From Armatimonadota bacterium (GTDB lineage: Bacteria; Sysuimicrobiota; Sysuimicrobiia; Sysuimicrobiales; Humicultoraceae): a DNA stretch of 64,000 bases. The position numbers and the translations under genes were made by a program. Location: NCBI GenBank assembly GCA_031459855.1, contig JAVKHP010000001.1, forward strand, positions 3,090,139 to 3,154,138. The letters run 5' to 3'. Shown piece by piece: positions 14,677-33,362 of this stretch. Within the stretch, counting starts at the first letter, position 1. Every line of letters starts with the position of its first letter. Below the pieces are notes generated by a model, which was given only the letters and a program-made list of their open reading frames with translations, was not told where the DNA came from and did not search any database.

Positions 14677-15866
14677 GGCGCCACGAGCGCGCGAACGCCG
14701 CCCGTCCGGGCAGGCTGGTGCCCGGGCCGGGCAGGCGCCCGCTCGGCCGGTCGGGCACGCTGCGCGTACCGCGAGATGTTCAGCAGCACCCCGACCTGGA
14801 GCATCGTGGTGACCATGGACGAGCCACCGAAACTGACGAACGGCAGCGGGACGCCGGTCACCGGCAGGCTGCCGGTCGCCACGCCCATGTTGAGCAGCGC
14901 CTGCCCCGTCACCGATATCGTGATGCCGGCCGCGAGCAGACTGCCGAACCGGTCGGGCGCGTACGCCGCGATGCGCAACCCGCGGTACGCAAACACCGCG
15001 AACAGCACCAGCAGCCCCAGCGTGCCCACCAGCCCGAGCTCCTCCCCGAGGATGGCGAAGATGAAGTCCGTGTGCCGCTCCGGAAGGTAGAAGAACTTCT
15101 GCCGGCTGGCGCCCAGTCCCAGGCCGACGATGCCGCCGGAGCCGAACGCCAGCAGCGCCTGGATGATGTGGAAGCCCGCCCCCTGCGGATCGCGCCACGG
15201 GTTCAGGAACGCCACGATCCGCGCCATCCGGTAGTCGGCCACCACCACGGCTGCGGCCACCAGCGGGAGCGCGGCGCCCGCGATCAGCCCCAGGTGCAGC
15301 GGTCGCGCGCCGCCCAGGAACAGCATGACGAACACCGCCGCCCCCAGCACCAGCGCCGAGCCCATGTCGGGCTGGCGCAGCGCCAGCGCGCCCAGCAGCC
15401 CGGTGATCAGCAACGGTGGGACCACGCCGCGCCGGACATCCCCCATGCTCAGCCCGCGCCGGGTGGCGAACTGCGCGACGTAGAGCAGCACCGCCAGCTT
15501 GGCGAGCTCGACCGGCTGCAGGCGCAGCGGCCCGACGACGAGCCAGCGCCGGGCGCCGCCCGCGACGACCCCGATCCCCGGGATCAGGACCAGTCCCATG
15601 AGCACCACCGCTACCAGCAGCACCGGCACGGCCAGACGCCGCCAGTGGAGGTAGTGCACGTGCCACGCCACGCCCAGCGCCGCCAGTCCCAGCGCCGCCC
15701 ACAGGGCCTGGCGCTTGAAGAAGTACGCGCTGTCCTGCACCCGTTCGAGCGCCACGATGCTGCTCGCACTGTACACCATCACCAGGCCCACGGCCACCAG
15801 GGCCAGCACGCACGCGAAGAGCGCCACGTCGCCGGTGCGTCGATGCAGGGCCGCGACGGTGCCCAC
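14673..15866 (-). CDS. ftsW: Septal peptidoglycan glycosyltransferase FtsW (SEDS family)
   Basis: FtsW polymerises lipid II together with FtsI. The 397-residue polytopic protein has about ten hydrophobic spans, the early motif VMVYSASSIVALE, the PVELAKLAVLLYVAQF segment, the large extracellular loop with NPWRDPQGAGFHIIQALLA, and the C-terminal signature PFVSFGGSSMVTTM. The cytoplasmic tail is long, basic and proline-rich. The GTG start overlaps the murD stop by one base (TAGTG). Its place between murD and murG supports FtsW rather than RodA. Confidence 0.95.
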   Translation of the reverse strand: MGTVAALHRRTGDVALFACVLALVAVGLVMVYSASSIVALERVQDSAYFFKRQALWAALGLAALGVAWHVHYLHWRRLAVPVLLVAVVLMGLVLIPGIGVVAGGARRWLVVGPLRLQPVELAKLAVLLYVAQFATRRGLSMGDVRRGVVPPLLITGLLGALALRQPDMGSALVLGAAVFVMLFLGGARPLHLGLIAGAALPLVAAAVVVADYRMARIVAFLNPWRDPQGAGFHIIQALLAFGSGGIVGLGLGASRQKFFYLPERHTDFIFAILGEELGLVGTLGLLVLFAVFAYRGLRIAAYAPDRFGSLLAAGITISVTGQALLNMGVATGSLPVTGVPLPFVSFGGSSMVTTMLQVGVLLNISRYAQRARPAERAPARPGHQPARTGGVRALVAP

Positions 15867-17368
15867 TAGCGCCCCGCCTCCTCGACGGCCATCGCAGGCA
15901 GCGACGCGACCAGCTGGCAGAACCGGTCGCCGCGCTCCCGATAGTCCGCGAACTGGTCGAAGCTCTCGCAGCCGGGCGACAGCAGCACCGCCTCGCCGGG
16001 ACGCGCCGCAGCCCGCGCCGCTGCCACGGCGCGCTCCAGCGTCTGCACCTGGACCACGGCCAGCCCGCGGGCCCGCGCCAGCGGGGCCAGCGCCGCAGCC
16101 AGCACGGGCGCCGTGGCACCGATCAGGTAGACGCCACGCGTCGCGATCGCGGCCAGAGCATCGACCATCGGCTCGAACTCCTCCGCGCGCGGCGTCTGGC
16201 GGTACCCGCCCGCGATCAGGTGGACCGGCCGGCGCATGCTGCGGATCGCCGCGGCGGCCGCCGCCGGGTTGGTGGCCAGCGAGTCCTCATAGAAGGCGAC
16301 GCCGTCGCGCTCGGCCACCAGCCGGCATCGATAGGGAAGCCCCCGGAAGGCGCGCAGGGCTTGCGCCATGGCCTCGGGCGGCACTCCCACGATCGCCGCT
16401 GCCGCCATGGCGGCCAGGGCGTTCTCGACCACGTGGTCCCCGGGCACTGCCAGCGCCGCAGCATCCAGCACGCGCACTGGCTGCCGACCCGCCAGCACGA
16501 GCCAGCCGTCCGCGAGGTACGCGCCCCGGGGGACCACGCGACGACGGCTGAACCAGTGGACCTGCGCGCCCAGTCCCGAGGCCATGCCCGCCACCAGCGG
16601 ATCGTCCGCGTTCAGCACCGCGCAATCTGAGGGGCGCTGCCAGCGCACGATCGTCCGCTTGGCCTCCACGTACGCCTCCAGGCTCCCATGGTCGTCCAGG
16701 TGGTGCGGGGCGATGTTGGTGACCACGGCGACGTGGGGGCTGTAGGGCAGGCCAACGAGCTGGCGATTGCTGATCTCCAGCACCAGCCACGTCTGCGGTG
16801 TCAACCGCTCCAGCGCGTAGACCGCCGGGACGTGCGTGCGGTCGTTCCCCGAGACCACCGCCGGGATTCCCGCGGCTTCCAGCATGGCACCGAGCAGGGT
16901 GACCACCGTGAACTTCCCGTTGGTGCCGGTGACGCCCAGCACCGGCCCCGGGTGCACCTCGAAGTACAGACGCGTCAGGCTCCACAGCGGGATCCCCCGC
17001 GCCACCACCTCGCGCACCGGCGCGTTCTGCGGATAGCGGAACCACGACTGGGGCGCGAAGACGAGCTCGGCCTCTTCCAGCCCCTCAAGGTACCGCGCGC
17101 CCTGCCGCCACGTCACCGGGCCGGCCCACAGGCGTGCCACCAGCGCGGCGCGGCCCGCCGCATCCAGCCAAGGATGGGTGCGGTCCACCGTGGCGGCGAA
17201 CCGCTCCGCGGGCTCCACGTCGTGCGCGGTGATCGTCGTGATGCCGTGGGCCAGCAGGAAGTCGAGCACCGCCGAGCCCTCGGTCCCCGACGGCCCGAGC
17301 ACGTGGATCCGCCGGCCGCGGAGCCGGGCCAGAACCGCCTCGAGGCGTGCGGCTGCCGCAGTGTTCAT
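15866..17368 (-). CDS. murD: MurD-position Mur ligase (UDP-MurNAc-L-Ala:D-Glu ligase, divergent motifs)
   Basis: By position (mraY-murD-ftsW) and fold this is MurD, which adds D-Glu to UDP-MurNAc-L-Ala. It has 500 residues, slightly long. Visible motifs: P-loop GVTGTNGKFT, with Lys152 followed by Phe153 where Ser/Thr is usual; NIAPHHLDDHGSLEAYVEAK, with the lysine that is carbamylated in the family; NADDP; and the C-terminal LSPGCESFDQFADYRERG. Two hallmarks are altered: DSKATN reads DSLATN (Leu364 for Lys), and the GGxDKG motif reads GGYRQTP (388-393). In E. coli MurD, lysines of these motifs contact D-Glu. The enzyme may be a divergent MurD or one that accepts a different amino acid; no second murD is visible. 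ATGA overlap with mraY. Confidence 0.85.
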   Translation of the reverse strand: MNTAAAARLEAVLARLRGRRIHVLGPSGTEGSAVLDFLLAHGITTITAHDVEPAERFAATVDRTHPWLDAAGRAALVARLWAGPVTWRQGARYLEGLEEAELVFAPQSWFRYPQNAPVREVVARGIPLWSLTRLYFEVHPGPVLGVTGTNGKFTVVTLLGAMLEAAGIPAVVSGNDRTHVPAVYALERLTPQTWLVLEISNRQLVGLPYSPHVAVVTNIAPHHLDDHGSLEAYVEAKRTIVRWQRPSDCAVLNADDPLVAGMASGLGAQVHWFSRRRVVPRGAYLADGWLVLAGRQPVRVLDAAALAVPGDHVVENALAAMAAAAIVGVPPEAMAQALRAFRGLPYRCRLVAERDGVAFYEDSLATNPAAAAAAIRSMRRPVHLIAGGYRQTPRAEEFEPMVDALAAIATRGVYLIGATAPVLAAALAPLARARGLAVVQVQTLERAVAAARAAARPGEAVLLSPGCESFDQFADYRERGDRFCQLVASLPAMAVEEAGR

Positions 17369-18339
17369 CGGGCGGCGATGACGCCGAGCACCAGGCAGAC
17401 TCCGCCGGCGGCGTAGAACCGCCGGACCACCTGGGGCTCCGACCAGCCCACGAGCTCGAAGTGGTGATGCAGTGGGCTCATGCGCAAGATGCGCCGGCCT
17501 CCGGTCGCCTTGAAGTAGGCCACCTGCGCCAGCACCGACGCCGCTTCCGCCACGAAGACGCCGCCGATGATCGCCAGGGGGAGTTCCGTGCCCGTGGCCA
17601 TCGCCAGCGCCGCCAGGCCTCCGCCCAACGCGTTGGACCCCACGTCACCCATGATGAGGCGCGCAGGGTACCTGTTCACCGACAGGAAGCCCGCTGCCGC
17701 GCCAGCGATGGCGGCGGCCACCACGGCCGCGTCGGGTGCCGCGCGCCTGGCGGCCACGAGCGCCAGCCCCGCCGCGGCCGCGGCCGACAGCCCTGCGGCG
17801 AGCCCGTCGAGCCCGTCGGTGAGGTTCACGGCGTTAGCGAACCCCGTGAGCCACAATGCGGCGACGACAGCGTAGGCGCCGCCCAGGTCGATCGCGGCAC
17901 CGCCGGGCAGCCGCACCGCAGACCCCAGCGTAGCGGCCGTGACGCTGCCCAGCAGCAGGCCCAGCCCCAGTTGCAGGGTCAGCCGCTCCCTGGCCCGCAG
18001 GCCCAGATTGCGCCCCCGGCGCACCTTCTGCAGATCGTCGAGGAATCCGATGGCCCCAAACCCCAAGAGGCCTGCCAGCCCCAACCCGACCCGTGCCGTC
18101 CAGCCGCCCGTGATCGCTGTCGCCAGCACCACGGCAGCCACGATCAGCACGCCGCCCATGGTCGGCACGCCGGCCTTGGCCCGATGGCGCGCGGGGGCAT
18201 CCTCGCGGATCTGCTGCCGCGACCCCAGGGCCGACAGCCACGCCACCGCCCGCGGTGCCGTCACCAGCACCGCCGCAGCCGCCAGCAGGGCTGCCGCGCC
18301 CGCCTGCGCCCACAGGGGCCACGTCGCCACCGCGGTCAC
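17365..18339 (-). CDS. mraY: Phospho-N-acetylmuramoyl-pentapeptide transferase MraY
   Basis: MraY makes lipid I from UDP-MurNAc-pentapeptide and undecaprenyl phosphate. The 324-residue polytopic protein has GVPTMGGVL, the catalytic aspartate pair in GFLDDLQKV, NAVNLTDGLDGLAAG, the nucleotide-site motif LIMGDVGSNALGG, and the MraY signature SPLHHHFELVGWSE near the C-terminus. The GTG start overlaps the murF stop (GTGA). The C-terminal hydrophobic segment ends at the murD start. Confidence 0.96.
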   Translation of the reverse strand: MTAVATWPLWAQAGAAALLAAAAVLVTAPRAVAWLSALGSRQQIREDAPARHRAKAGVPTMGGVLIVAAVVLATAITGGWTARVGLGLAGLLGFGAIGFLDDLQKVRRGRNLGLRARERLTLQLGLGLLLGSVTAATLGSAVRLPGGAAIDLGGAYAVVAALWLTGFANAVNLTDGLDGLAAGLSAAAAAGLALVAARRAAPDAAVVAAAIAGAAAGFLSVNRYPARLIMGDVGSNALGGGLAALAMATGTELPLAIIGGVFVAEAASVLAQVAYFKATGGRRILRMSPLHHHFELVGWSEPQVVRRFYAAGGVCLVLGVIAAR

Positions 18340-19736
18340 AGCGAGCCCGCCGGCGCTCCTGCGCCCAATCCGGCCACGAGGCGCTCCATCGCCACGGCGC
18401 GCGACCCCTTGATCAGCACCGCATCGCCGGCCCGCACCATGCCGCGTACCACCGGCAGGGCAGCCTCGACGTCGGGCACCCAAACGAGGGCGTCGGCCGG
18501 CATCCCGGCGGCCATCGCTCCCTCCACGTAGCCGCGCGCCGCGGGTCCCACCGCCAGCAGCACCGCGGGACGCACGGCCGCGGCTGCCCGGCCGACGTCG
18601 CGGTGCAGCTCGTGCGCCTGTGGCCCCAGCTCGCGCATCTCCCCCAGCACCAGCACCCGTCGCCGCGCGCCGCTCACCTGATCCAGCACCTCGAACGCCG
18701 CCCGCATCGACTGGGGGCTGGCGTTGTACGAGTCGTCGACCACGAGCACGTCGTCGATCAGCACCACCTGCTGGCGCATCGCGGGTGGACGCGCCTGGCG
18801 CAGTCCCGCGGCCACCTCGGCGACCGGCAGCCCCAGCGCCACACCCACGGCCGCCGCCAGCACCGCGTTCTGGACCTGGTGACGCCCGGGCAGCGGCAGC
18901 AGCACCTCCGCCTGCTCGCCGCCGCCGTGGAGCACGAAGCGCATGCCGTCGCCCGCCGGCGCGACGGCGGTGGCGCGGACGTCGGCGTCTGGCCCCAGGC
19001 CTGCGCGCAGCACCCGACTGCGGACGTCGCGAAGCACGCGCGGGGTCCACGGGTCGTCGGCGTTCACGATGGCGAGGCCATCGTCGGGCAGGCTCTCGAG
19101 CAGCTCGGCCTTGGCTGCCGCGATCGCCTCGTGGGAGCCCAGCAATTCCAGGTGCGTGTCGCCGATGAGGGTAACGACGCCCAGCTGGGGCCGCGCCATG
19201 GCGGCCAGGGCGCGAATCTGCCCGCGGCCACGCATCGCCATCTCCAGCACCGCCACCTCGTGGTGTGGTCGCAGCCCCAGCAGCGCCAGCGGCACACCGA
19301 GCTCGGCGTTCCACGACTCTGCGGTACGCGCGACCCGCCAGCGCCGCGCGAGCACGTGCGCCGTCAGGGCCACCGTCGTGGTCTTCCCCACGCTGCCGGT
19401 GATCCCCACGACGACCGGTGCCAGCTGTCGCCGCCACAGCGCCGCCACCGCCCCCAGGGCCCGCAGCGTATCGTCGACCACGATGGCCGGCAGCCCGCGG
19501 GCTGCCGGCGGCTCGCTGACCAGCGCCAGCACGGCGCCCCGCGCGGCCGCATCGTCCACGAACCGGTGCCCGTCGGTGGTGGTCCCCCGCAGTGCAACGA
19601 ACAGATTGCCGGGCGCGGCCGTGCGACTGTCGATGGTCACGCCGGTCACCGCCGCGGGCACCGCGCCCCCCGGCGGCACCACGAGCCGGCCGCCGGTGGC
19701 TGCCACCAGGTCGTTGACCATCAGGCGGACGCTCAC
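18336..19736 (-). CDS. murF: UDP-MurNAc-tripeptide--D-Ala-D-Ala ligase MurF
   Basis: MurF adds D-Ala-D-Ala to the tripeptide precursor. The 466-residue protein has the N-terminal SRTAAPGNLFVALRG, an intact P-loop GITGSVGKTTTVALT, the ENRH-type region, NADDPWTPRVL, and DDSYNASPQSMRAAFEVL in the C-terminal domain. It starts with GTG in a GTGA overlap with murE. Unlike the MurD and MurE of the same cluster its P-loop is canonical, so the changes there are not a general feature of the cluster. Confidence 0.95.
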   Translation of the reverse strand: MSVRLMVNDLVAATGGRLVVPPGGAVPAAVTGVTIDSRTAAPGNLFVALRGTTTDGHRFVDDAAARGAVLALVSEPPAARGLPAIVVDDTLRALGAVAALWRRQLAPVVVGITGSVGKTTTVALTAHVLARRWRVARTAESWNAELGVPLALLGLRPHHEVAVLEMAMRGRGQIRALAAMARPQLGVVTLIGDTHLELLGSHEAIAAAKAELLESLPDDGLAIVNADDPWTPRVLRDVRSRVLRAGLGPDADVRATAVAPAGDGMRFVLHGGGEQAEVLLPLPGRHQVQNAVLAAAVGVALGLPVAEVAAGLRQARPPAMRQQVVLIDDVLVVDDSYNASPQSMRAAFEVLDQVSGARRRVLVLGEMRELGPQAHELHRDVGRAAAAVRPAVLLAVGPAARGYVEGAMAAGMPADALVWVPDVEAALPVVRGMVRAGDAVLIKGSRAVAMERLVAGLGAGAPAGSL

Positions 19737-21226
19737 GGCGTGGCCGTCCTTCCCGCCGGCATCCCGGCCCGGAGGAGCGCGCGGGCAACCTGCCGGTCAT
19801 CGAAGGGGTGCTTCACCCCGCGAATCTCCTGGTACGGCTCGTGTCCCTTGCCGGCGATCAGGACCAGATCGCCGGCCCGCGCCGTCGCCAGAGCCAGGGA
19901 GATCGCCCGGCGCCGGTCCGGCTCGACCATGACCTCCACCGCGCGCCCTGCGGCACCCTGCACCACGCCCGGCCGGATCTCCTCGATGATCGCCAGCGGG
20001 TCTTCCCCGCGCGGGTTGTCCGATGTGACGACGACGACGTCGCCCCACTCGGCCGCGATGCGGCCCATCAGCGGCCGCTTGGTGCGATCGCGATCGCCAC
20101 CGCACCCGAACACCACGATGAGCCGACCGGCGGTGATCGCCCGTGCGGCGCGCAGCACGTTCTCGAGCCCGTCGGGCGTATGCGCGTAGTCCACCACGAC
20201 CCCAAACGGCTGTCCTTCGTGCAGCGCCTCGAAGCGCCCCGGGATGCCCGGCATGGCGCCGAGTGCCTCGACCATCGTGGCCAGGGGCACACCCTGCGTG
20301 AGGCCGACGGCTACGGCCGCCAGCGCGTTGGCGACGTTGAAGGCGCCGACCAGGCGCAGGCGGACACGCGCCGTGCCCTGCGGCGTCTCGATCACGAACG
20401 TGCTGCCGCGCTGATCCAGCTCGACGTCGCGGCCCCGAACGTCGGCGGGCGCCCGCAGGCCGTAGGTGACGACGGGCGCCCGACTCACGCAGCGCATCAC
20501 GGCCGCGGCCGGGTCGTCGGCGTTCAGGACGGTCCAGCCCGACGGCGGGACCATGGCGAACAGCCGCGCCTTCGCTGCGCGGTACGCCTCCAGGCTGCCA
20601 TGGAAGTCCAGGTGGTCGCGGGTGAGGTTCGTGAAGACCGCAACCTCCACGCGCGTGCCGGCGACCCGCTCCAGCACCAGCCCGTGGGACGCCACCTCCA
20701 GGGCGGCGTAGCTGCACCCCCGGTCCACCATCTGCCGCAACGCGGCCTGCAGCGCCGGCGCCTCCGGCGTCGTGCGGTCACCGGGCATCGTCGCGCCGTC
20801 CACCACGACGCCCATGGTCCCGATGATCCCGCACCGCTGCCCGGCGTGGCGGAGGATCGCCTCGACGAGGAACGTCGTCGCCCCTTTCCCGTTGGTGCCG
20901 GTCACGCCGATCACCCGCAGGTGGCGCGACGGATGTCCGAAGAACGCCGCAGCCAGCAGTCCCAGGGCGCGACGGCTGTCGGCGACACGGATCCACGTCA
21001 CGCCGGGCCGCGGCGGCACCGGGCGGTCCACCAGCACGGCGGCCGCGCCGCGCGCGATCGCCTCGTCGATGAACGCATGCCCGTCGTGCTGCTGACCCCG
21101 AAGGGCGGCGAACAGGAAGCCGGGGCGCACCTCCCGGGAGTGGTACGCCAGGCCCGCGATCTCCCGGTCCGCGTCGCCGGCCACCGACGGCGCGTCGAGC
21201 TCCGCCAGCAGCGCGCGTACCCGCAT
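19733..21226 (-). CDS. murE: UDP-MurNAc-L-Ala-D-Glu--diaminoacid ligase MurE
   Basis: MurE adds the third-position diamino acid. The 497-residue protein carries DNPRGED (the DNPR motif associated with meso-diaminopimelate specificity), LTRDHLDFHGSLEAYRAAK with the carbamoyl-lysine, and VVDYAHTPDGLENVL. The P-loop reads GTNGKGATT: Lys114 is followed by Gly-Ala instead of the usual Thr-Thr, resembling the GTNGKGS form of folylpolyglutamate synthases. The ATG with GGGAGG upstream was chosen over an in-frame start ten codons earlier. murE is separated from ftsI by 66 bases, one of the few real gaps in the cluster. Confidence 0.94.
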   Translation of the reverse strand: MRVRALLAELDAPSVAGDADREIAGLAYHSREVRPGFLFAALRGQQHDGHAFIDEAIARGAAAVLVDRPVPPRPGVTWIRVADSRRALGLLAAAFFGHPSRHLRVIGVTGTNGKGATTFLVEAILRHAGQRCGIIGTMGVVVDGATMPGDRTTPEAPALQAALRQMVDRGCSYAALEVASHGLVLERVAGTRVEVAVFTNLTRDHLDFHGSLEAYRAAKARLFAMVPPSGWTVLNADDPAAAVMRCVSRAPVVTYGLRAPADVRGRDVELDQRGSTFVIETPQGTARVRLRLVGAFNVANALAAVAVGLTQGVPLATMVEALGAMPGIPGRFEALHEGQPFGVVVDYAHTPDGLENVLRAARAITAGRLIVVFGCGGDRDRTKRPLMGRIAAEWGDVVVVTSDNPRGEDPLAIIEEIRPGVVQGAAGRAVEVMVEPDRRRAISLALATARAGDLVLIAGKGHEPYQEIRGVKHPFDDRQVARALLRAGMPAGRTATP

Positions 21227-21292
21227 GCGGACGACCTCCCGAAAGCCCCCGCCCATTATAGCAGCCGCCCCCAGAGCCGACCGCCGCGCGTC

Positions 21293-26851: not shown

Positions 26852-27103
26852 CTGAACGAAAAGCGCGTATTTCAATAAAGTAACCGGACCGACAGCGCAG
26901 CAGGTGCGGCACTCCACGCCGCCGAGCCGCCTCGTCGCGAGAAGCTCGTGGAAGTCCACGATTACGAGGCGCGCGTCATCGTAAGCGATCCATAGCGCCG
27001 CCTGCACGAGAGCGTACCCGCCGAGGTGGGGAATGAGGATTATACGCGCTCTCAGCAATGCGATAGCGCGTGGGTTGTTAGTGTACAACGATCGCGAGAT
27101 CTA

Positions 27104-27130
27104 AGACCGTCGGTCTGGTTCTTCTTTTTT
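27104..27130 (+). terminator. Possible small hairpin with T-tract upstream of the first HD-GYP gene
   Basis: AGACCGTCGGTCT (27104-27116) is self-complementary apart from its central base and is followed by GGTTCTTCTTTTTT. It resembles a weak intrinsic terminator or attenuator reading rightward, although the loop would be very small. It ends just before the proposed start of the HD-GYP gene, so it could instead be an operator. Confidence 0.3.
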
Positions 27131-27133
27131 GAG

Positions 27134-28402
27134 ATGATGCAGACGATCTCGCCACCCGTCCAATGGTTCACGTTGGCCGTCATTGCGACAGCTGAAGTAG
27201 TTCTGGCATTTTCTTTGCATCAAGTATCGTGGCAGCTGTGGCACGAATTGTTGCTTTTCTACATCGTGACCGTAGTAGCGTACTCAGTACGTGTACCCGA
27301 TCCTAGAGGTGGTGCTGTCACACCTAGCGATGTCCTCTCATATCTCGCGACCTACCTTTTCAATCCCCCTACAGCTCTGCTGGTCGTTGGGACGGGGCGT
27401 ACGTTGGGTTACGTGGTTTCCCGAGGATGGATACCGTGGCGGGCGCTGTTGAACGGCGCACAGATGGGAATCAGCGTTGCAATCGGTGCACTAGTATTCT
27501 CTGCGTTGGGTGGCACGCCCGGCCACATCGACTTGGAAAAAGGACACCTGGCGCTGGTTGCGGCGCCGCTCGCGCACCAAGCGGCGAACAACTTTTTCTA
27601 CGCGTACAGCTTCAGCAGATGGCGCGGAACAAGTCTGTCAGCTATTTGGCTCGTCGGGATCCGGGATCTTTTTTGGCCCAACCTACTGCATATTCCGACT
27701 GCCATATTTTTAGGGATCCTCACCACAAGAGTGACAGCCTTTGCGATTGTGCTGTACATGCTTTTGCTCCCGTTTCAGTGGCGGGCGTTGCGGCTTTATC
27801 TCGGAAGAAGACAGCTCTATGCTCAGATCGTAGACAGGCTTGTAGTGGCGATGGATGTCGACTTTCCTTCGAGCGGAGCGCACGCGAGAAGGGTCGCGGC
27901 CATCGCAGTGGCAATTGCAGAAGAAATGCGCTTGGGTGAGACTCACGTCGAGGCCATTCAGTTTGCTGCCCTATTACACGACGTAGGGCTAATTGGGAAG
28001 GTGGATCTGTTGCAAAAGCATCGATTTGATTCGGAAACGAGTAGGAACTTCGAAGAGCACGTATACGTGGGTGCGAGCATCGCACAAGAACTGCCACGCA
28101 AGGATATCGGACTGTTGGTGCTCCACCACCACGAGCGCTACGACGGGCAGGGATACCCGAAGGGGCTCAAGGCAGACGCGATCCCCTTGGGGTCACGGGT
28201 GATTGCTGTGGCTGAGTATGTAGATAGTATGAGGTTCGGTCTCCCCCCCTATACCGTTGCGTCCGAGGAATCAGATGTGATTGCTGCCGTTCGAAACGAG
28301 AGCGGGCGCGCATTCGACCCGGAAGTCGTTGATGCTTTTTTGCGGGCCGTTGCCAAAGGACTGTTCGTGCGATTGGGAGAAAAGACAGCGTTCATCCCGT
28401 AG
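27134..28402 (+). CDS. Membrane HD-GYP domain protein with degenerate catalytic motifs
   Basis: The 422-residue protein has about 240 hydrophobic N-terminal residues forming six to eight membrane spans, then an HD-GYP domain, the class that hydrolyses cyclic di-GMP. Seen in the domain: GAHARRVAAIAVAIA, H282-D283 in LLHDVGL, EEHVYVGA, HHHERYDGQGYPKGL. Two changes stand out against the consensus: the Lys of HDxGK is Leu286, and the metal-ligand Asp of VADxxDA is Glu361 (VAEYVDS). It may be weakly active or act as a sensor. The ATG lacks a good ribosome binding site, but the resulting length equals that of the downstream paralogue exactly, which supports it. A second HD-GYP gene follows after 16 bases. 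Base composition is AT-richer than the core genome. Confidence 0.85.
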   Translation: MMQTISPPVQWFTLAVIATAEVVLAFSLHQVSWQLWHELLLFYIVTVVAYSVRVPDPRGGAVTPSDVLSYLATYLFNPPTALLVVGTGRTLGYVVSRGWIPWRALLNGAQMGISVAIGALVFSALGGTPGHIDLEKGHLALVAAPLAHQAANNFFYAYSFSRWRGTSLSAIWLVGIRDLFWPNLLHIPTAIFLGILTTRVTAFAIVLYMLLLPFQWRALRLYLGRRQLYAQIVDRLVVAMDVDFPSSGAHARRVAAIAVAIAEEMRLGETHVEAIQFAALLHDVGLIGKVDLLQKHRFDSETSRNFEEHVYVGASIAQELPRKDIGLLVLHHHERYDGQGYPKGLKADAIPLGSRVIAVAEYVDSMRFGLPPYTVASEESDVIAAVRNESGRAFDPEVVDAFLRAVAKGLFVRLGEKTAFIP

Positions 28403-28418
28403 CACTCTGGAGCTGCGC

Positions 28419-29687
28419 ATGACGATAGATTGGGTTACTCATTTCGGATCCTCGCTGTGGAGCGCCAGTTTGGCTGTAGCGGGCGCTGGTTTTTCGGCCG
28501 GTGTAGCTCTCCTGGCGGTGACCACATCGCAAGCGTGGGTACCCTTGCTACTTCTCTTGGCTCTTGGGGTTATTGGGGACATTTTCCGCATACGTTTGAG
28601 TCACCATAGTGAGATTGCGCTGCGGTCTGTTCCTGCTTTCGTTGCGCTCTGGAGTATTGGGGTGCCGGCGTACTTGCTCGTCGGCTTGTCGCCGCTAGCC
28701 GTCCTTGGAGCGATCCGCAGGGATAGGGAATGGGCGCAAACCTTTGCACGCGAGGCAACATCTCTTTGGGTCGGGCTGGGCACCCAGGGCATCGTGGAGT
28801 CAGTCATCTTCCACGTGTCCTCCTCCGAAACGACGGAGAGCCTTTTGGTGCACATGTCTGGCCCACTAGCTTACTGGGTGTCGACCTTGGTGATGCAGGC
28901 GTTCGCTATTCACCGCCAAGAAGGCGTGGCGTATCGTTCACTCGCGCGCGGACTTAGCCGCGAGGCCTTACCCCACATTTTCGTGCTGAGTGCCGCCGCA
29001 GTCACGTTAGGGTACTTGCTGGATAGGTTTGGAGCCGCAGCGATGGCCGTTGCGGCCGTGGTCCTAGTCGAAGGCTACTATCCATGGAAACTTGTCGGTG
29101 AGCAGAGTGGGCTGCTTCTCACCAGCCTTCAGATGATGGCGCAAGCCGTAGACCTCAAGGATCCTTACACGTCCAATCACTCGCAGCGAGTGGCGCGCCT
29201 TGCAGTTCGGCTTGCGCGGGAACTGGATTTGTCAGAGGCGGAGGTGGAGCGCGTTAGGATCGGTGCTTTGCTACATGACTTAGGCAAGATAGGAGTGAGC
29301 AACGAGATCATTCGGAAGCCAGGGAAACTAACCTTAGAGGAATATCGTGCCGTCATGAAGCACTCAGAAGTCGGTGCGGACATTATCGAACCCCTTGAGA
29401 TTCTTGGGGACTCCGCAGCCATGGTGCGACACCATCACGAGCACTGGGACGGATCGGGGTATCCAGATGGCCTAGCTGGGCGAGCTATTCCACTGGGCGC
29501 AAGAATCATACTTGTGGCCGACGCGTTCGACGCGCTTACGACGGACAGGCCCTATCGCAAAGGTACGAGTCCGGAGAAAGCCCTAGAGGTAATTCGAGCA
29601 AACGCGGGCGTGCAATTTGATCCAGACGTAGTAAGGGCTCTTGAGCGTATAGTCACGCGGCACGGATCGAGTAGCGTGACGTTGTGA
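28419..29687 (+). CDS. Membrane HD-GYP domain protein, canonical phosphodiesterase motifs
   Basis: The 422-residue protein has an N-terminal membrane region of roughly 220 residues (including VAGAGFSAGVALLAV and LLLLLALGVIGDIF) and then a full HD-GYP domain. All consensus elements are present: NHSQRVARLAVRLA, H286-D287-L-G-K290 in LLHDLGKIGV, KHSEVGADII, RHHHEHWDGSGYPDGL, and VADAFDALTTDRPYR with Asp368. It is therefore expected to degrade cyclic di-GMP to pGpG or GMP at the membrane. The ATG has a TGGAG site seven bases upstream. It follows the degenerate paralogue by 16 bases and precedes a large regulator by 45, forming a three-gene unit. Confidence 0.92.
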   Translation: MTIDWVTHFGSSLWSASLAVAGAGFSAGVALLAVTTSQAWVPLLLLLALGVIGDIFRIRLSHHSEIALRSVPAFVALWSIGVPAYLLVGLSPLAVLGAIRRDREWAQTFAREATSLWVGLGTQGIVESVIFHVSSSETTESLLVHMSGPLAYWVSTLVMQAFAIHRQEGVAYRSLARGLSREALPHIFVLSAAAVTLGYLLDRFGAAAMAVAAVVLVEGYYPWKLVGEQSGLLLTSLQMMAQAVDLKDPYTSNHSQRVARLAVRLARELDLSEAEVERVRIGALLHDLGKIGVSNEIIRKPGKLTLEEYRAVMKHSEVGADIIEPLEILGDSAAMVRHHHEHWDGSGYPDGLAGRAIPLGARIILVADAFDALTTDRPYRKGTSPEKALEVIRANAGVQFDPDVVRALERIVTRHGSSSVTL

Positions 29688-29732: not shown

Positions 29733-32700
29733 ATGAAAAGCGCTGCCCTGAGGCTGTTTGGCCGCTTTTCGTTAACAATGTCCTCGCATCAAGTTTCTCT
29801 GGGTGACAAAGAAGAAGCGTTGCTTGCCGTTCTTGCCCTGGGAGACGGAGGCGCCACTCCAAGATCTCGTGTGGCAGGGATGCTTTGGCCCGACCACTCA
29901 GAGTCTCGGGCACGGGCAAACCTGAGCACCGTTATCTGGCGGGTAAGAGCCGCAGTTAAGCGACACGACCTACGGGGCGATCTACTTTTGTCAGATGCGT
30001 CTCGCATTTGGTTAGACACGTCACGTATTTGGGTGGACGTTCAGGAGTTTAGGAAGGGAGCAATTGCCAAGCCCGGACAGTTACTAGACCTAGAGGCGTT
30101 GGGGCGCGCGGTAGCCAGTATGGAGCTCTATGTTGGAGACCTGTTACAAGACTGGGACTATGAGTGGTGCGTGTTGGAGCGGGAGTCACTCCGCGAACTC
30201 TACCTTTGCACCGCCGAGGCGGTCATCGACGGTTTCGAGCAACGGCATAGATGGGACGTTGCGCTTAGATGCGCCCGCAAGGCGATACAGATGGATCCCT
30301 ATCGGGAGCGGCTCCAGCGTGCGCTAGTGCGTCTCTTGCTGCGAAGTGGAGACCGGGCAGCGGCTTTGGCACAGATCTCTAGATTCGCCAGACTGGTAAG
30401 ACACGAATTTGGTGTCGAACTCGACAACAGCATTCTCGACCTTTCTCGTGCGATGCGAGGGTCTCATCCGTGGCTGTCCCGCACGGAGGGCAATCCAATT
30501 GCACAGAGCCACTTTCCTCCTGCGCGAGAGCTTCCTTTGATTGGACGTCTTGTCGAGAGACAATGCCTCCTTGCCGCTCTTGAGAGAGCAAGAAACGGCA
30601 AGGGCACTGGGATCTTCATCACAGGTGACGCCGGTATGGGCAAGACGAGGTTGCTCAACTGGTTTTTGGAGGAGTGGGCTGCTTTCGGTGGCATCACGAA
30701 GCGGGGCCGGTGCATCGAATTTTGTCAACCGGTGGCTTATCATCCGGTCAAAGACCTCCTCGGGCTTGAACTCTCTGGCCAGCATGAAGCGCACTCAGTT
30801 GAAACCGGTGTAGGAACCAGCCCCAACGACAATTACTCTGGGCCTGCCAAGAGCGGTGCTCGGCTACACTTCACGCAGGTGATGTCGAAAGTTGAGGCGC
30901 TTACGACTCAGCGGCCGGTCCTATTAGTCATCGAGGACGTACAGTGGGCCGACGCCTATACCGTTGACCTCGTCGCATTCCTCCTGGAGAGGGCCAATGG
31001 TCTTCGCCTTGTCGTAGCAGTTAGCGCGAGCTTGCCGCTGACTTCGTCCCAGGTCGCGCTGCACTATCGCCTGCAGCGCTGTGCGGACATTGCATTGAGA
31101 CTGGCACCCTTGACAAGGTCAGAAATTGCCGAGCTGGTTAGCAATGTTGCGGCAGGTCTGGAGGATCCGGCTCGGGCTATTGATCGAGTTTGGCTCGAAT
31201 CGGAAGGCAACCCTTTTATCGCCTTGGAGGTTCTTAAAGTCATTGGCACCCGGAACAAAACCTCCGATCGACGCATGAGGGTCTCGGTACTACCAGGGAA
31301 TGCTGCGTCATCCGATGCAATGCCTGATGCAGTCCGTTCACTCCTACAGCGGCGCCTGTGTGGGCTTCCTCCGGACGCACGGACGGTTGCCGAGGTCGCC
31401 TCCGTGCTAGGGCGAAGTTTTGATTTGGAGGTACTCACCGGACTCGCAGGTATAGAGACACGTGAACTGCAGGCTGCAGTGGAACTGCTAGATGCTGCCG
31501 GTGTGTTTCAGCGCGAACAGTCAACCATTAGGTTTTCGTTAGAGCAATACCGCCTCCTGTGCTACGAGCGCCTGCCTCCGCGCGACCGCGTGACGTATCA
31601 TCAAAGAGCTTACAAGATTCTGCTACCGCGTGGCGACGCCGCGGCTACAGAGCTAGCTTGGCATCAGTATGCATCAGGATGCCTTAAGAGAGCCGCACGG
31701 TGGTGGGAGGCGGCGGGTGATCGGGCGGCTGCCGCGTACCAGTATGAAGTGGCAGACCGGGCTTACAGCATGGCAGCGGAGTGCTGGAAACGAGTTAGTC
31801 GCCGAGGTGCAACTGAGAGTGTTACTTGTAGCGAGTTTCGAGTACTGAGCAAACTCGACGAAGTAATGACAGTGATGGGACGAACTCGAGAGCGGCGTGA
31901 AGTACTTGATGAGATGAGAGCGCTGGCTTCGCGGGATCCCTCCAAGAAGCTTTTGGCTTCCTGGTATCTCCGCGCCGCATGTTTTGACGAGCACGTAGGC
32001 AATTTTGATACAGCAGTGCGACTCGCAAGGAGAGCCTGGCATCTGGCTGGTAGTCTCAGAGCGCAGGATCTGCAGGTGACAGCTCTACGAGACTTTGCAT
32101 GGGCGCTGAGTAGAGCGGGCCGGAATTGGAGAGCCCTGGCGGCCTTCAGGGCGTGCCTGAGACGGGCGCGATACGCAGAACCACGCGAAGTCATTACGGC
32201 GCTTTGGCAGACTGCCGTGGTATGCATCAAGCTATCTGATTTCGCACTGGCCTCGGCGTGCCTAGAGCGGGCCAAGTTAGCAAGCAAAGTATCAAGTTTC
32301 GTGCATGAAAGTTCGGAGATATTAGGTGTAGAAGCGATTGCGGATAAATGGATGGGCAGGCCAGAAGCAGCGAGAGAAAAACTAAGCCGTTCGATGAACA
32401 TCGCGAAGAAGAGACGTGACCGTGTGATGATAGCTCGTCTCGACTTTCACCTGGCAACGCTTGATTGCCTTGAAGGACAGCTTGGCCAGGCTCTGTGTAG
32501 ATTGCGCAGAGCCATTGTGGCAAGTCGTGAGATGGAGTATGTGAGGACGCATCTTTCCTGCCTTACCGAAGTTGCCAGCGGGCTTGGCCGTGTGATAGGC
32601 AGCTTTGAGTTGGCCCGGATGGCGGTACGGCATGCTCTTAGAATCGCACACTACACTCAAAGCCGATTTCTGTATGCTGTTTGTAGAGATGCGGAGGCGC

Positions 32701-33362
32701 AGTTACTTATCGAAGAAGGGCGCTTCGCTGAAGCGGGATTCGTGGTAGCGGATGTGTTTGAGACGCTTAAGGCTGCGGGATATCCTGTGGCTGGCCTGTC
32801 AGAGGCGGTGATGCGACGCGGCGTCATCAGTCTGCTCCTTGGACAGGTCGAGACGGCGCTCGCGGATCTGGAGACAGCAGCGAGGCTGCAGTCTCAAGCC
32901 GGCGATCGGCTCCTTCTGGTCAACTGTTTGAGCTACTTAGCAGCAGCCTATGCAGCGATTGGCAACATGGCATCCGCCCTCGCCGTGTCCACCGATGCGG
33001 TTCGACTGCTTCAAGCAACTAATCACGCGAACCCTCAACCGCAGCGGATCTATTGGCACCATTACCTGATCCTCAAGTGCATGGGCCTAGAACCACGTGT
33101 GCCGTACCTACAGAGGGCGGCAGAACTGATTGAAACAAGGGCCGTCACGCTCTCACGGGCACAACAGCGGCGGTTCAAGACGGCGGTTCCATTGAACCGT
33201 GAGATCTTGGCGGCCTGGGAACACTATCGGCAGACTGGCGCAGAGTTGGAAGCGGTCGACTTGCGCGGGGGAGTCTTGCCAAATCCGATGGGAAGGCTGG
33301 ATGGTGGCGTGCCTGTGTCCGCGAAGGCTCACCCGACGGAATGCTTGGGAACCGTCTCCTGA
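29733..33362 (+). CDS. Large BTAD-AAA-TPR transcriptional regulator (SARP-like)
   Basis: This is a 1209-residue regulator. Residues ~1-95 form a winged-helix-like DNA-binding domain (EEALLAVLAL, TPRSRVAGMLWPDHSE, LSTVIWRVR). Residues ~100-240 are the bacterial transcriptional activation domain (BTAD), ending RLVRHEFGVELD. An AAA/STAND ATPase follows, with Walker A GDAGMGKT at 298-305 and Walker B VLLVIEDVQWAD from 396. The remainder, from about residue 600, is helical TPR-like repeats (AVRLARRAWHLAGSL, ALADLETAARLQSQAG). No C-terminal LuxR helix-turn-helix is seen. Such proteins integrate ligand or protein signals to activate promoters. It lies 45 bases after the canonical HD-GYP gene, so it may control or respond to the cyclic di-GMP enzymes; the target is unknown. 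Confidence 0.88.
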   Translation: MKSAALRLFGRFSLTMSSHQVSLGDKEEALLAVLALGDGGATPRSRVAGMLWPDHSESRARANLSTVIWRVRAAVKRHDLRGDLLLSDASRIWLDTSRIWVDVQEFRKGAIAKPGQLLDLEALGRAVASMELYVGDLLQDWDYEWCVLERESLRELYLCTAEAVIDGFEQRHRWDVALRCARKAIQMDPYRERLQRALVRLLLRSGDRAAALAQISRFARLVRHEFGVELDNSILDLSRAMRGSHPWLSRTEGNPIAQSHFPPARELPLIGRLVERQCLLAALERARNGKGTGIFITGDAGMGKTRLLNWFLEEWAAFGGITKRGRCIEFCQPVAYHPVKDLLGLELSGQHEAHSVETGVGTSPNDNYSGPAKSGARLHFTQVMSKVEALTTQRPVLLVIEDVQWADAYTVDLVAFLLERANGLRLVVAVSASLPLTSSQVALHYRLQRCADIALRLAPLTRSEIAELVSNVAAGLEDPARAIDRVWLESEGNPFIALEVLKVIGTRNKTSDRRMRVSVLPGNAASSDAMPDAVRSLLQRRLCGLPPDARTVAEVASVLGRSFDLEVLTGLAGIETRELQAAVELLDAAGVFQREQSTIRFSLEQYRLLCYERLPPRDRVTYHQRAYKILLPRGDAAATELAWHQYASGCLKRAARWWEAAGDRAAAAYQYEVADRAYSMAAECWKRVSRRGATESVTCSEFRVLSKLDEVMTVMGRTRERREVLDEMRALASRDPSKKLLASWYLRAACFDEHVGNFDTAVRLARRAWHLAGSLRAQDLQVTALRDFAWALSRAGRNWRALAAFRACLRRARYAEPREVITALWQTAVVCIKLSDFALASACLERAKLASKVSSFVHESSEILGVEAIADKWMGRPEAAREKLSRSMNIAKKRRDRVMIARLDFHLATLDCLEGQLGQALCRLRRAIVASREMEYVRTHLSCLTEVASGLGRVIGSFELARMAVRHALRIAHYTQSRFLYAVCRDAEAQLLIEEGRFAEAGFVVADVFETLKAAGYPVAGLSEAVMRRGVISLLLGQVETALADLETAARLQSQAGDRLLLVNCLSYLAAAYAAIGNMASALAVSTDAVRLLQATNHANPQPQRIYWHHYLILKCMGLEPRVPYLQRAAELIETRAVTLSRAQQRRFKTAVPLNREILAAWEHYRQTGAELEAVDLRGGVLPNPMGRLDGGVPVSAKAHPTECLGTVS

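Follow-up and report, generated by a model that had tools for sequence, protein, structure and literature searches.

Judged from its sequence, MurD of the bacterium analysed here (phylum Sysuimicrobiota in GTDB) is a phylum-wide variant of this ligase with a rebuilt acceptor site: it appears to be the sole MurD of the whole phylum and to form a subfamily, still working by its looks, that goes back to a one-time rebuilding, in the common ancestor, of the site for the acceptor amino acid and the acyl-phosphate. Both D-Glu at position 2 of the peptidoglycan stem and the MurI-MurD pair are regarded as near-universal and as targets for drugs. With every MurD position that controls the choice between D and L altered, no MurI, and an ordinary MurE, this phylum is a ready-made experiment on which MurD residues are needed, and points either to an unrecognised D-Glu source or to an L-Glu route invented a second time.

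The murD gene and its setting

The window, a stretch of 64,000 nucleotides, contains a dcw cluster that extends downward from 25048 to about 7.9 kb, in the order mraZ, rsmH, ftsL-like, ftsI, murE, murF, mraY, murD, ftsW, murG, murC, murB, ftsQ, ftsA, and ftsZ, the Mur genes being identified by profile and the remainder from translations. Four of them recur below:

19733..21256, minus strand: murE, DAP type (DNPR), zero phylum-specific changes
18336..19736, minus strand: murF, ordinary by profile and column comparison
15866..17368, minus strand: murD, 500 amino acids, the only MurD in the genome
12146..13552, minus strand: murC, DDYAHNPVK in place of DDYAHHPTE

The murD reading frame starts with ATG and has zero internal stops. 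Its product scores 293.1 bits against TIGR01087 (murD; cut-off 211.95), and since the match spans only profile positions 77-439, the N-terminal domain is too divergent for alignment. The AlphaFold model (pLDDT 91.8) finds MurD as its best fold match, with a Z of 36.7 over 425 aligned residues for the E. coli enzyme. A second murD, which an earlier note on this DNA had proposed seeking, was not found by a TIGR01087 search of the whole genome, where the other matches are MurC, MurE, MurF, and one protein outside the dcw cluster that, from its location, is probably FolC. Elsewhere in the window, translations suggest two neighbouring membrane proteins with HD-GYP-like domains (27026-29687, plus strand) and, directly after them, a large SARP/AfsR-like regulator (29733-33362).

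A rebuilt acceptor site, fixed across the phylum

The altered and retained motifs are listed below in order along the protein, with E. coli MurD numbered as in the literature (open reading frame number minus 1):

17036..17053, minus strand: PQSWFR, P106-R111, in place of SPG (E. coli 71-73), with W109, F110, and R111 inserted; nearly invariant in the phylum
16907..16927, minus strand: P-loop GTNGKFT, residues 148-154, with F153 at E. coli S116, where other MurD have Ser/Thr
16832..16849, minus strand: GNDRTH, residues 174-179, in place of GN-IG at E. coli N138, a two-residue insertion with R177 and H179
16757..16777, minus strand: EISNRQL, residues 198-204, in place of ELSSFQL, with N201 and R202 at E. 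coli S160 and F161
16691..16705, minus strand: HHLDD, residues 222-226, with H222 at the D-Glu contact D182 (PMC4652230)
16658..16660, minus strand: K237, equivalent to the carbamoyl-lysine (E. coli K198), kept
16268..16285, minus strand: DSLATN, residues 362-367, with L364 at E. coli K319; T366, at T321, is kept
16175..16210, minus strand: GGYRQTPRAEEF loop, residues 387-398, three residues longer than usual, with the invariant R390 adjoining the K348 position
15932..15970, minus strand: CESFDQFADYRER, residues 467-479, with S469 (S415) kept and E468 and R477 new

The motifs GTNGKFT (with F153), DSLATN (with L364), and GGYRQTP (residues 387-393) thus stand as the earlier note had given them, and its picture of a ligase that looks functional but has a changed acceptor pocket agrees with the present comparison, in which the catalytic residues are kept and the set of active-site residues truly differs. 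Equivalents of the catalytic K115, E157, H183, K198, R302, and D317 are all present, and invariant in 30 MurD of the phylum; retained in this protein are the carbamoyl-lysine K237, E198, H223, R347, D362, T366, and S469. In E. coli MurD, D-Glu is contacted by D182, T321, K348, S415, and F422 (PMC4652230). Here T321 and S415 are kept, D182 is His, F422 is Tyr (frequent elsewhere too), and the K348 position is Gln, with Arg390 one residue earlier. An inhibitor of MurD binds with one carboxylate at K348/T321 and with its other at S415/F422, in a pocket lined by F161, N138, S159, and G73 (PMC3527612); N138 and S159 are kept here, and F161 and G73 are changed. The equivalent of E. coli H301 is mostly Tyr, A414 has become Glu, and E423 has become Arg.

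Two lysines had been singled out as D-Glu ligands that were both lost. Of these, Lys348 is indeed a D-Glu contact, but Lys319 is reported near ADP and UMA, closing in once ATP has been hydrolysed (PMC4652230), so that the assignment was only half right. Likewise, Lys319 has given way to Leu as claimed, whereas the loss of Lys348 was overstated: the conserved Arg390 adjoins its position, where 11 of 80 ordinary MurD carry Arg, and the charge is probably retained through this residue.

The phylum was sampled through 43 genomes, all from one order, 40 of which have one strong MurD match (including all 28 with at least 90% completeness), at 53-71% identity to this MurD. Thirty of these proteins were aligned and compared, residue by residue, with 80 MurD from other phyla. 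L364 occurs in all 30, and position 319 of the others is Lys in 79 and Thr in one (a Candidatus Uhrbacteria MAG, near 493-1842, reading DTTATS, the sole one of the 80 without Lys there). Position 153 is Phe in 28 and Tyr in two, against Thr (63), Ser (16), or Gly (1) at the corresponding position 116 elsewhere. R390, N201, R202, D176, R177, H179, W109, R111, E468, and R477 are present in 30/30 and H222 in 29/30, whereas the S160 position of the 80 others is Ser in 79 and Thr in one; D182 is variable in ordinary MurD too (Ala, Thr, or Asn in 14/80). Position 16 is Glu in the phylum and Ser (68) or Thr (12) in the others. Fixation of the motif residues in the 30 aligned proteins means that neither chance nor sequencing error produced them, and what had looked like the peculiarity of one organism belongs to the phylum. 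In a tree, the phylum MurD fall into one clade (support 1.0, stem 0.63), and MurD2 stands elsewhere, on a very long branch of its own.

Remodelling is concentrated in MurD

Columns were called clade-specific when invariant in the phylum with a residue nearly absent elsewhere. There are 30 among the 144 invariant columns of MurD, many of them at the substrate site, versus 12/828 in ten other dcw proteins pooled (MurC 3, MurE 0, MurF 1, MurG 0, MraY 1, FtsW 0, FtsI 1, RsmH 1, MurB 2, FtsZ 3), counts that are only roughly comparable because order samples and alignment sizes vary between genes, and with a Fisher p of ~2e-17 that is indicative only, as columns within one protein are not independent. 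Among columns at least 85% conserved in other phyla, 8/64 are switched in MurD and 8/606 in the other ten proteins, with 0/100 in MurE, a clear contrast despite the rough comparability. In MurC, the phylum's DDYAHNPVK differs at residues 332 and 335, apparently in the same domain 3 region as DSLATN of MurD.

Candidate sources of D-glutamate

A canonical MurI and a MurL, whose genes the earlier note had also proposed seeking, were not found in the phylum. No phylum genome (0/43) has a MurI over the TIGR00067 cut-off, which 12 of 18 genomes outside the phylum exceed; weak partial matches to this profile were rejected as MurI, being to an asp_race/CuyB-type gene. MurL was likewise absent (0/43) with queries that included the Xanthomonas sacchari and Pseudonocardia proteins, swapped in for an initial query fragment that scored 435 bits on NCBIfam NF041275; as a control, the profile gave over 240 bits to left-out MurL of ~37% identity. 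No MurL-like neighbour was evident at four MurD loci of non-phylum genomes without a TIGR00067 match. Class IV transaminases are present in the phylum, none over the cut-off of TIGR01121 for D-amino-acid transaminase, a weak negative, as this cut-off is narrow and is passed by only 1/14 control genomes.

The asp_race/CuyB-type racemase (266 bits on NF052483, both catalytic cysteines present) lies in a block ileS-racemase-dksA-like-lspA (within G000:C1:3070140-3090139), found in 9/10 relatives' loci examined (in one, ileS lies beyond the stretch examined), and has matches at 52-59% identity in 32 phylum genomes. This aspartate-type racemase is ancestral in the phylum. By analogy with Vibrio fischeri, where overexpression of the aspartate racemase RacD can provide the D-Glu of peptidoglycan (PMC12502697), it could be the maker of D-Glu. 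It has been cleanly lost in G006 (97% complete) and G002, where ileS is directly followed by dksA, and has no match in G008, G009, and G014; the MurD pocket is unchanged in all five. Other PF01177 proteins of racemase-lacking genomes have mostly GCFxDPG-type motifs and resemble hydantoin/allantoin racemases, and the two aspartate-type catalytic motifs were not seen in them, the one exception being a G002 paralogue of 34% identity.

DapF was considered as a further source and is disfavoured. The chlamydial enzyme can racemise glutamate, for which both active-site cysteines are required (PMC5885031), but the sole DapF homologue of the phylum (here G000:C1:601867-602682, minus strand; TIGR00652, 245 bits) has Ser for both (EKSGNG and MASGSS, codons AGC and TCG; 15/15 sequences) and would therefore be a poor source. 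An identical Ser/Ser pair occurs in a DapF-like protein of a Streptomyces plasmid. At least one near-complete genome thus has no recognised D-Glu source.

What the enzyme may add

We favour, tentatively and at a little short of an even chance, the reading that the incoming substrate is D-Glu and comes from a source other than MurI. The enzyme would still couple glutamate to UDP-MurNAc-L-Ala via the usual acyl-phosphate route, given that carbamoyl-Lys237, Glu198, His223, Arg347, and Asp362 are kept. The side-chain carboxylate would be gripped by S469 and the backbone of Y476, as in E. coli, and the alpha-carboxylate by T366 and the new arginines R390, R202, and possibly R177, replacing K348. 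With Lys319 gone, closure following ATP hydrolysis would have to depend on other residues. D-Glu would come from the aspartate-type Asp/Glu racemase in most members and from another enzyme where this is absent, and stem position 2 would remain D-Glu. D-Glu is the substrate of Streptococcus mutans MurD, which carries Arg at 348 (PMC8788868). Against this reading, the one other enzyme among the sequences compared to have a hydrophobic residue at Lys319 is MurD2, which uses L-Glu, and loss of the racemase in G006 and G002 left the MurD pocket as it was.

A serious rival, if a more doubtful one, is that this MurD is an L-Glu ligase analogous to MurD2, acting with an unrecognised epimerase, so that MurI became dispensable and was lost. 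Xanthomonas MurD2 adds L-Glu, and the changes E197D/R358K switch it to D-Glu; the positions that set stereospecificity in MurD and MurD2 (D182, K319, K348; PMC8788868) are all altered in the phylum, with T321 and S415 kept, and with K319T, E. coli MurD can take L-Glu (PMC8788868). In X. sacchari MurD2, positions 16, 182, 319, and 348 are Glu, Glu, Ile, and Arg, and the phylum's pairing of Leu at 319 with Glu at 16 recalls its Ile/Glu, a combination foreign to the 80 other MurD; MurI is missing throughout, and at least two genomes have lost the aspartate-type racemase as well. Yet a MurL profile sensitive enough for the control above finds nothing in the phylum, no candidate epimerase was identified, 182 is His rather than the Glu of MurD2, the remaining phylum-specific residues are not common to MurD2, the tree keeps the two apart, and two of the three stereo-controlling positions (182 and 348) vary in D-Glu enzymes as well. 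The fuller version, in which the whole phylum came to an L-Glu-adding MurD independently of Xanthomonas MurD2 and an unrecognised family of epimerase stands in for MurL, seems to us unlikely. That glutamate is handled in a new way, as the earlier note had offered, survives in these readings, L-Glu included, at which it had hinted only via MurD2 and MurL.

Its other suggestion, that a different amino acid takes the second position, fares worse. Such an enzyme, adding for instance D-Asp from the aspartate-type racemase and giving a novel stem peptide, would suit the several Arg and His residues newly placed about the acceptor site and the ancestral aspartate/cysteate-type racemase, but is improbable: MurE has to bind whatever residue MurD adds, and it shows zero clade-specific changes in 126 invariant columns and scores far over the DAP-type cut-off, and an ordinary MurE reading the product of a remodelled MurD counts against a new second amino acid. 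Moreover, bacteria examined to date are described as strictly conserving D-Glu at position 2 (PMC5885031), and some members have lost the racemase with MurD unaltered. That the gene is a degenerate or moonlighting homologue, the true D-Glu-adding enzyme lying elsewhere, is scarcely credible: many usually conserved residues are replaced, but there is no other MurD in the genome, and the protein is strongly conserved over the phylum, keeps its catalytic residues, and is encoded inside an intact dcw cluster.

Comparison with known enzymes

The phylum enzyme shares with canonical MurD (TIGR01087; E. coli, S. agalactiae) the fold, the dcw position, the carbamoyl-Lys, E157, H183, R302, D317, T321, and S415, and passes the curated cut-off. 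It differs in K319 to Leu, D182 to His, F161 to Arg, S160 to Asn, S116 to Phe, and H301 mostly to Tyr, in GNIG to GNDRTH and SPG to PQSWFR, in A414 to Glu and E423 to Arg, and in a longer GG loop with R390. With MurD2 it has in common a hydrophobic residue at 319, Glu at 16, altered 182 and 348, and the absence of MurI, but where MurD2 has E197 and R358 (Glu at 182, Arg at 348) it has His222 and an Arg390 shifted by one in a longer loop; these residue differences, the absence of MurL from the genome, and the separate place in the tree indicate that it lies outside MurD2, even if it may act alike. Gram-positive MurD of the S. mutans type resemble it in having Arg for Lys348 and a D182 that is not conserved, but keep Lys319, S160, and F161. 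MurT of MurT/GatD has the same Mur ligase fold but amidates the D-Glu of lipid II together with GatD, whereas the gene described here is the murD of a dcw cluster and scores over the MurD cut-off.
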